64,000 nucleotides of DNA from Finegoldia magna ATCC 29328 (GTDB lineage Bacteria > Bacillota > Clostridia > Tissierellales > Peptoniphilaceae), in assembly GCF_000010185.1 (NCBI RefSeq), contig NC_010376.1:496001-560000 (forward strand), read 5' to 3'. Positions 48,660 to 51,297 of the stretch are shown here, one piece after another; positions within the stretch are counted from its first letter, which is position 1, and the number at the start of each line of letters is the position of its first letter. A program made the translations under genes and the position numbers. Under the pieces are notes generated by a model that saw only the letters and a program-made list of their open reading frames with translations, made no database searches and was not told where the DNA came from.

Positions 48660-48695
48660 TTTATTAAATTTTTAATTATCAAAGAAAGATTGATT

Positions 48696-49190
48696 ATGAT
48701 TTACGATTTTTATATTAACAAAGATATTAAGGATAGATTTAGAATTTTATCGGATGATAAGTTGATTTATTCTGGATATAAAGAAGGAAACAGCACTTCG
48801 TTTTTCGATGCATTTATTGGTTCCAGTTTTGATAAGGGATCGAATTTTGTGTTTTACGATGAAAATGAAGATGTTGTGATGAAGGTTGAGCGTATTTTTT
48901 ATGAAAACAACAAAAAATACGTAATTAATTCCAAAAATTTAAACTTTACATTAGAATCTGACATGTCTAACACTATTAAATACGACAACGACAAGATGAT
49001 TGATATTTCTGATTTTAAAAATATTAATGTGCTAGATTTTGGAAACATAGAATTAAACAAGAAAGGTTTCAGCATTTATGAAAAATTTACTTTGGACGAA
49101 AAGAATCATGACTACACATTCGTTGTTATTGCTGTAGCTTTGTTTATATGGGATGTATATATTAAAGAAAGATTAGGATTTATAAAATAA
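48696..49190 (+). CDS. Hypothetical membrane-anchored protein, possibly tubby/LURP-like fold
   Basis: I do not recognise this 164-residue protein with certainty. Residues 1-140 are strand-rich (YDFYINKDIKDRFRILSD, NFVFYDENEDVVMKVERIFYENNKKYVI), and a single membrane segment lies near the C-terminus (about 143-158, YTFVVIAVALFIWDVYI). This layout recalls tubby/LURP-one-like barrels with a C-terminal anchor, at low confidence. I chose ATG 48696 over the in-frame TTG at 48690; the ribosome site is weak either way. Its stop overlaps the yitT start, so the two are coupled. Confidence 0.7.
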   Translation: MIYDFYINKDIKDRFRILSDDKLIYSGYKEGNSTSFFDAFIGSSFDKGSNFVFYDENEDVVMKVERIFYENNKKYVINSKNLNFTLESDMSNTIKYDNDKMIDISDFKNINVLDFGNIELNKKGFSIYEKFTLDEKNHDYTFVVIAVALFIWDVYIKERLGFIK

Positions 49191-50071
49191 TGAGTAAAAC
49201 GGATTTTTTTGTAAAAAATTTTGGTAATAGAAATGAAGCCAAGAAGAAAATCATCTCAATTTTGTTAGCTAATTTATTGGCGGCTGTTGCGATTGACTTT
49301 TTCTTCAGTCAAAAGAACTTCTTGAGTGGTGGTTCTACTGGTATTGGATTGTTGGTTCAATATATGACAGGAATTCCTACAGGAGTTACGGTGTTTTTGC
49401 TTAATATTCCAATTATGATTATTGGATACAAATACTTAACTAGACAATTTGTAAACTATGCAGCTATTTCTACGATTGTGTTATCAGTGTATTTGACATT
49501 GTTTCACTATCTTCCAAATCCATTTATATTGAAGGATGATATGCTTGTCGCTGTAGTCGGTGGAGCGATAAATGGTACTTCGATGGGTACGCTTTTCAGG
49601 TTTGGTACATGCAGTGGTGGCTTGGATATCATAGCTGCAATTATGAAAAACGAAAAAGATATTTCTATAGGAAATGTACTTATGACTTGTAATGCAGTAA
49701 TCATCGCGATAGGTAGTGCTTTGTATGGTATTGACAAGGGATTTTACACTATAATCTCTATGTTTGTAGCTTACAGAGTTTTGGATAAAATCGAATTAGG
49801 AATTGGGGAAACAAAACAAGTTTTCGTTATAACTTCTAAGAACGAAGAAGTTGCCTCAATTATTATGGAAGATATGAACCGTGGTGTTACTTTCTTGCAT
49901 GGTGAAGGTGCTTTTTTGAATAACGAACAAGAAGTTATTTTCTGCGTATTAAAAAGAGCACAAGTTGCGTATTTGAAGAAGAAATTGAAAAAGATTGATC
50001 CTCGTGCATTTATTACAGTAAATGATGCTTACGAAGTATTGGGTAAAGGATTCGAAAGAGAAGAATATTAA
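49190..50071 (+). CDS. YitT family membrane protein (DUF161/DUF2179)
   Basis: A 293-residue protein with five to six membrane segments, then a cytoplasmic DUF2179 domain (KQVFVITSKNEEVASIIMEDMNRGVTFLHGEGAFLNNEQEVIFCVLKRAQV, about 205-255). FLSGGSTGIGLLVQY and GTLFRFGTCSGGLDIIAAIM are typical of the family. The transport role is not established. The start overlaps the stop of the preceding gene. pfp begins 11 bases after its stop. Confidence 0.9.
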   Translation: MSKTDFFVKNFGNRNEAKKKIISILLANLLAAVAIDFFFSQKNFLSGGSTGIGLLVQYMTGIPTGVTVFLLNIPIMIIGYKYLTRQFVNYAAISTIVLSVYLTLFHYLPNPFILKDDMLVAVVGGAINGTSMGTLFRFGTCSGGLDIIAAIMKNEKDISIGNVLMTCNAVIIAIGSALYGIDKGFYTIISMFVAYRVLDKIELGIGETKQVFVITSKNEEVASIIMEDMNRGVTFLHGEGAFLNNEQEVIFCVLKRAQVAYLKKKLKKIDPRAFITVNDAYEVLGKGFEREEY

Positions 50072-50082
50072 GGAGTGGTATT

Positions 50083-51297
50083 ATCAAAAACTTATTAATA
50101 GCACAATCAGGTGGACCAACTTGTGCCATCAATGCAACATTGGCTGGTTGTTACAAGAAAGCAATTGAATTGGGATTTGACAATGTGTACGGAGCTTTAT
50201 ACGGAGTACAAGGATTATTGGATTCCAAAATCATAGACTTGAAGTCGCAAATCAAAACAGATAAAGATTTGAACAGATTAAAAATCACTCCTGCAAGTGC
50301 ATTGGGTTCTTGCAGATACAAAGTAGATAGCGAAGAGAAACTTGCCAAAATCGTAGAAATTTTGAAATCATTTAATATTAATTATTTTATCTACATTGGT
50401 GGCAATGATTCAATGGACACTGTGTATCAATTATCCAAATACATCGAAAAAATTGGAGAAGATATTAATGTAATGGGATCTCCAAAAACAATTGACAATG
50501 ATTTGTTTGGAACAGATCACACTCCAGGGTTTGGTTCTGCAGCAAAATTTGTGGCGAATTCTGTTTATGAAATAGCAAAGGATGTCGAAATCTACGACTA
50601 TAGAACGATAACTATTGTAGAAATTATGGGACGATACGCTGGATGGTTAACAGCAGCAGGAGCAATCTCCAAGAAACTTTGCAATCTTGGAGCAGATCTT
50701 GTGTATATAAGTGAAGATACATTTGAATTTGATAACCTAGTCAAGGAAATCAATGAAAACTTCAAAAGGACAGATAATATTTTGATTTTAGTAAGTGAAG
50801 GTATTAAAGATTCTTCAAATAACTTCATATCCAAAACATCTGGCAAGAAAGACAAGTTCGGCCATGCACAATTGCAAGGACCATCGCACATAATCAGAGA
50901 TAAATTAAAAGAAATTTACGATATGCCAATTAGAAGTATTGAACTCAACATACTTCAACGATGTGATATGTCATTTGCATCCAAGACTGATATCGAAGAA
51001 TCATTCGAAGTTGGAGAATTTTCTGTTGAGTGTGTAGAAAATCATTCAGGTAAAATGGTTGGAATCAAAAGAATTTCCAACAAACCTTACAAGACAGAAT
51101 TTGAACTTGTTGATATAGAAAAAGTTGCCAACAAAACAAAAATGATAGTTCCAAAATACACAGACAGCCATTTCCAAATCGACGACGAATTTATGGACTA
51201 CATTCTTCCTTTAATCGAAGGAGAAATCGAAGTAGAATACAAAAATGGAATAGCACAATACTTTGCATTCGACAAAGAAGATATTGTGAAATTGTAA
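50083..51297 (+). CDS. pfp: Pyrophosphate-dependent phosphofructokinase, non-canonical start codon
   Basis: A 404-residue PFK that phosphorylates fructose-6-phosphate. PPi specificity is indicated by GGNDS (106-110, Asp where ATP enzymes have Gly) and PKTIDND (134-140, Lys where ATP enzymes have Gly), plus EIMGRYAGW. The frame is open upstream through the conserved phosphate loop IAQSGGPTCAIN, but no ATG, GTG or TTG occurs before TTG 50140, which would delete that loop. AGGAG at 50071-50075 is 7 nt from ATC 50083 (ATT 50080 at 4 nt), so initiation at AUC or AUU is the best reading. A sequencing change of ATG to ATC is the alternative. Confidence 0.85.
   Translation: MKNLLIAQSGGPTCAINATLAGCYKKAIELGFDNVYGALYGVQGLLDSKIIDLKSQIKTDKDLNRLKITPASALGSCRYKVDSEEKLAKIVEILKSFNINYFIYIGGNDSMDTVYQLSKYIEKIGEDINVMGSPKTIDNDLFGTDHTPGFGSAAKFVANSVYEIAKDVEIYDYRTITIVEIMGRYAGWLTAAGAISKKLCNLGADLVYISEDTFEFDNLVKEINENFKRTDNILILVSEGIKDSSNNFISKTSGKKDKFGHAQLQGPSHIIRDKLKEIYDMPIRSIELNILQRCDMSFASKTDIEESFEVGEFSVECVENHSGKMVGIKRISNKPYKTEFELVDIEKVANKTKMIVPKYTDSHFQIDDEFMDYILPLIEGEIEVEYKNGIAQYFAFDKEDIVKL

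Follow-up and report, generated by a model that had tools for sequence, protein, structure and literature searches.

The rare codon AUC as the most likely start of the pfp gene in Finegoldia magna

The window analysed here is a stretch of 64,000 nucleotides of Finegoldia magna ATCC 29328, in which a YitT-family membrane protein gene is followed by pfp, a gene for a PPi-dependent phosphofructokinase (Table 1). Just upstream of yitT, positions 48690 to 49190 hold a 166-aa ORF (ATG 48696) without Pfam or NCBIfam match. The reading frame of pfp is open after an in-frame TAA at 50044–50046 and contains no ATG, GTG or TTG until TTG 50140, which is preceded by the codons for LLIAQSGGPTCAIN. An earlier note on this DNA had described this layout, together with the loss of the phosphate loop from a protein started at 50140, and both the coordinates and the profile alignment given below agree with it. 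Folding of the RNA from 50040 to 50130 gave an ordinary value (z = -0.68), with no unusual structure over the start site, and a consensus scan for a promoter just upstream of pfp found no more sites than in shuffled sequences; from 49530 to 50083 the + strand had no site.

Table 1. Features of the yitT-pfp junction (window coordinates)
Feature	Position	Strand	Remarks
YitT-family membrane protein gene (PF02588 + DUF2179)	49190..50071	+	upstream of pfp; stop TAA 50069-50071, 11 nt before ATC
Shine-Dalgarno AAGGAG	50070..50075	+	shares two bases with the upstream yitT stop; conserved in DSM 20470
ATT (AUU), alternative pfp start codon	50080..50082	+	4 nt after AAGGAG
ATC (AUC), most likely pfp start codon	50083..50085	+	7 nt after AAGGAG; same in DSM 20470
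pfp	50083..51297	+	404 aa if ATC 50083 is the start; PPi-dependent phosphofructokinase, PRK14072/NF010675 subfamily
TTG, rejected start; the first canonical codon in frame	50140..50142	+	without Shine-Dalgarno; a start there loses the QSGGPT loop

Read from 50080, the pfp product matches NCBIfam NF010675 (diphosphate--fructose-6-phosphate 1-phosphotransferase) with 441 bits (cut-off 273, E 3e-132), and it also has a Pfam PF00365 match. Phosphofructokinases of the PPi type carry an Asp in GGxDS and a Lys in PKTIDND, where the ATP enzymes have Gly. The pfp product contains GGNDS at residue 106 and PKTIDND at residue 134, which we take to be PPi-type motifs, and the other phosphofructokinase of the same genome, adjoining pyruvate kinase, has GGDGS and PCTIDND and an ATG start. 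The profile score above the curated cut-off and the residue rule both place the protein in the PRK14072 subfamily. In the PRK14072 alignment, residue 3 of the protein read from 50080 falls on profile position 4; when the protein is started at TTG 50140, the match begins only at profile position 24, so that this canonical start would cost ~20 conserved residues. Moreover, the PPi-phosphofructokinase structures 3hno and 3k2q of the PDB align over residues 1–395, from the first residues on and with the AQSGG loop included. A functional gene for a PPi-dependent phosphofructokinase is the best explanation of this sequence evidence.

Judged from its sequence, F. magna pfp almost certainly lacks an AUG, GUG or UUG start, and the rare codon AUC at 50083 is most likely used instead, giving a predicted N-terminus of (M)KNLLIAQSGGPTCAINATL. 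The earlier note had proposed a non-canonical start, with AUC favoured over AUU and with a Shine-Dalgarno sequence suited to ATC 50083, and the spacing and the homologues bear this out. The 7 nt between AAGGAG and ATC lie inside the range of 4–9 nt that covers most AAGGAG-ATG pairs. Among 55 starts with AAGGAG and a first ATG in the sampled ORFs, the gap was 6 nt in 20, 5 nt in 10, 7 nt in seven and 4 nt in three. In an ungapped alignment, the column of 50083 holds ATG in one of the two closest homologues (G010, 53% identical protein) and TTG in the other (G011, 47%), and in most of the more distant relatives the start lies no more than two codons away. An AUU start at 50080, which would give MIKNLL and a protein one residue longer, is the strongest competitor, albeit an unlikely one. 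AUU is the classical start codon of infC and pcnB; here it is in frame behind the same AAGGAG and is also conserved in F. magna DSM 20470, some homologues (L007, L009) carry ATG in its column, and the start columns of pfp homologues vary by one or two codons. Its spacing is tight, however (3/55 AAGGAG-ATG pairs, against 7/55 for the spacing of ATC), and the two closest homologues start one codon later; for these two reasons we prefer ATC 50083.

The comparison within Finegoldia covers two genomes, that of ATCC 29328 and the separately deposited draft of DSM 20470; a search of the genus for further strains returned the same two genomes only, and a search of viral contigs returned none. In the 1.8 kb surrounding the start, 7.1% of positions differ between the window and DSM 20470. 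Over pfp, 61 codon differences are synonymous and six non-synonymous, and by this comparison the gene is evolving under purifying selection. DSM 20470 has the same AAGGAGTGGTATTATC and an in-frame TGA at the position of 50053, which is its nearest upstream in-frame stop, closer to pfp than TAA 50044. This TGA confines the start of pfp to the stretch from 50056 to about 50098, where only near-cognate codons are available. The change behind it, 50053 C>T, is the nearest upstream difference; it is silent in the frame of yitT (TTC/TTT), which argues that the sequence upstream is translated as yitT, not as pfp.

A start at TTG 50140 or later, giving a shortened protein, is highly improbable. A gene finder restricted to ATG, GTG and TTG would choose this codon, the first ordinary start in the frame, but the codon has no Shine-Dalgarno sequence, and a start there drops a loop (QSGGPT) that is conserved in the homologues and in the PPi-phosphofructokinase structures. 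The 19 codons from ATC 50083 to TTG 50140 show two synonymous differences between the two genomes (CCA/CCG and ACT/ACA) and no non-synonymous ones, as expected if the segment before the TTG is translated. TTG 50140 was rejected on these three counts.

One base change would be enough to make an ATG, and a sequencing error or a mutation confined to one strain could thus produce the observed codon. An ATG at 50083 in another strain was the observation that the earlier note had named as refuting its reading; we looked for it in DSM 20470 and found ATC. The start context there is that of the window, AGAAGAATATTAAGGAGTGGTATTATCAAAAACTTATTAATAGC, including the same six bases ATTATC, despite the local divergence of ~7%, which makes an error or a one-strain mutation very unlikely. 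A -1 frameshift from yitT into a YitT-PFP fusion was rejected as scarcely credible: the two frames do overlap at 50056–50071 in both Finegoldia genomes, but reading of the sequence found no slippery heptamer in the overlap, pfp possesses its own Shine-Dalgarno sequence, and its homologues are separate genes that have different neighbours. It should be noted that the identical run of 64 nt around the pfp start is only the fifth longest in the aligned stretch; given this unexceptional length and a comparison of two Finegoldia genomes, selection on the ATC itself cannot be deduced. On the sequence of these two related genomes, the AUC reading of pfp appears to be a conserved and natural start other than AUG, GUG or UUG.

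How common such starts are was assessed in a sample made of the window and 20 further stretches (464 kb, ~23% of the F. magna genome, which comprises two contigs and 1,986,740 bases, 1,797,577 of them in the larger contig), containing 325 ORFs that do not overlap and are 150 codons or longer. Under a strict test, requiring a non-canonical codon at Shine-Dalgarno spacing and over 30 nt ahead of the first ATG, GTG or TTG, pfp alone passed (1/325 ORFs in the 464 kb). This uniqueness, the PRK14072 profile alignment and the identical context in DSM 20470 together argue that the start context of pfp did not arise by chance. A looser test added infC (AUA) and a gene for a DUF2232 membrane protein (AUU), both conserved in DSM 20470; its remaining hits look gene-internal.

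The infC gene (L034:1495; G000:C2:761495) reads GGAGGTGAATAAT ATA AAA GAC TTA ATG, with ATA 8 nt and ATG 20 nt from GGAGG, and its start context is identical in DSM 20470 (L035); from its sequence, F. magna infC probably starts at ATA. In the DUF2232 gene (L039:19048-19053), GGAGGTGGG is followed by ATT ATT AAT ACG, and the first ATG lies 27–30 nt downstream without a Shine-Dalgarno sequence. About 20 nt after a TATAAT box, this gene has the stretch GGAGGTGGGATTATTAATACGATTGATTAT, which is conserved in DSM 20470 (L080). In other genera, 45 pfp-type loci were compared, and almost every one has ATG, GTG or TTG close to the start column. The pfp of one genome of another genus (G087, L070:213) has ATT after GGAGGAAGCGCT (GGAGG), exactly where its congeners have ATG; this locus is ambiguous because an in-frame ATG lies six codons before the ATT, ahead of the GGAGG.

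Initiation at non-AUG codons with the help of a Shine-Dalgarno sequence is already known from infC, pcnB, sigR, ccpN and cvfC1. The pcnB gene of E. coli, started by AUU, is like pfp an enzyme gene with a near-cognate start, although the two differ in enzyme, codon and phylum. Like pfp, infC has a Shine-Dalgarno sequence and a near-cognate codon that departs from AUG in its third base: AUU in E. coli, ATC in Streptomyces (PMC5472188) and AUA in S. aureus (PMC13009471). The infC precedent cited in the earlier note therefore stands, but its restriction to enterobacteria does not, given these two cases and the probable AUA of F. magna. The infC product, IF3, regulates its own gene, whereas the pfp product is a metabolic enzyme, and IF3 would be acting there, if at all, on a gene other than its own. 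Streptomyces sigR (GTC, PMC5472188) resembles pfp in having a genus-conserved non-canonical start unseen in related genera; its repression by IF3 was demonstrated experimentally (PMC5472188), whereas the pfp start is read from the sequence of two genomes. Among Firmicutes, conserved non-AUG starts like that of pfp are found in ccpN (AUA, S. aureus and B. subtilis) and cvfC1 (AUU, S. aureus) (PMC13009471). Both have extended Shine-Dalgarno pairing, in contrast to the six bases (AAGGAG) of pfp, and ccpN likewise acts on central carbon metabolism, but as a regulator and not as an enzyme. A search of open-licence full text found no AUC-started PPi-phosphofructokinase and no relevant paper tying Finegoldia or pfp to unusual starts.

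We consider it likely that pfp is a functional gene on which ribosomes start at AUC 50083 with the ordinary initiator tRNA and the AAGGAG sequence, and that the ATC was acquired in the Finegoldia lineage. The initiator tRNA (anticodon CAU) would read AUC with a mismatch at the third position, while the Shine-Dalgarno pairing would hold the codon in the P site and enable initiation. A special initiator tRNA with another anticodon was sought with the pattern GGGNTNNTRACCC, which presumes the usual initiator anticodon stem; it returned two copies only, both with CAT. The canonical codon present in the 50083 column of the closest homologues would have changed to the ATC common to the two Finegoldia genomes. 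Ribosomes that end translation of yitT, the stop of which overlaps the Shine-Dalgarno sequence, may help by re-initiation.

IF3 accepts Watson-Crick and G/U third-base pairs in vitro and excludes weaker ones (PMC10158994). By analogy with E. coli, Streptomyces and S. aureus, it probably lowers initiation on pfp to some degree, and control of pfp by IF3 is plausible. In S. aureus, AUU and AUA starts give ~10% of the AUG level, with up to 30% for ccpN in rich medium (PMC13009471). Reporters with AUC, AUU and AUA initiate far better in Clostridium than in E. coli: with one leader, six non-AUG codons reached 40–100% of AUG in Clostridium (0.04–3% in E. coli, with the native leader), and with another, AUU, AUA, CUG and AUC reached 5–20% (0.1–0.3% in E. 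coli) (PMC9680021). Going by these reporter figures (~10–30% in S. aureus and 5–100% in Clostridium), the effect of the start codon on the PFP level in Finegoldia may be small or moderate. The low or tuned translation that the earlier note had read from the start codon is not established, as the Clostridium values range so widely with the leader (PMC9680021). That the small set of AUC-, AUU- and AUA-started genes (pfp, infC and the DUF2232 gene) follows the IF3 level or ribosome state, and so ties the flux through PPi-phosphofructokinase to growth state, is a doubtful extension.

Few bacterial genes have a verified non-AUG start, and an AUC-started metabolic enzyme would be an unusual addition to them. 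Since gene finders limited to ATG, GTG and TTG would remove the phosphate-binding loop of PFP, database entries for the protein may be wrong. Moreover, pfp offers a natural test of the tolerance of near-cognate starts that reporters suggest for clostridia-like bacteria, and of whether IF3 may set the level of a glycolytic enzyme.
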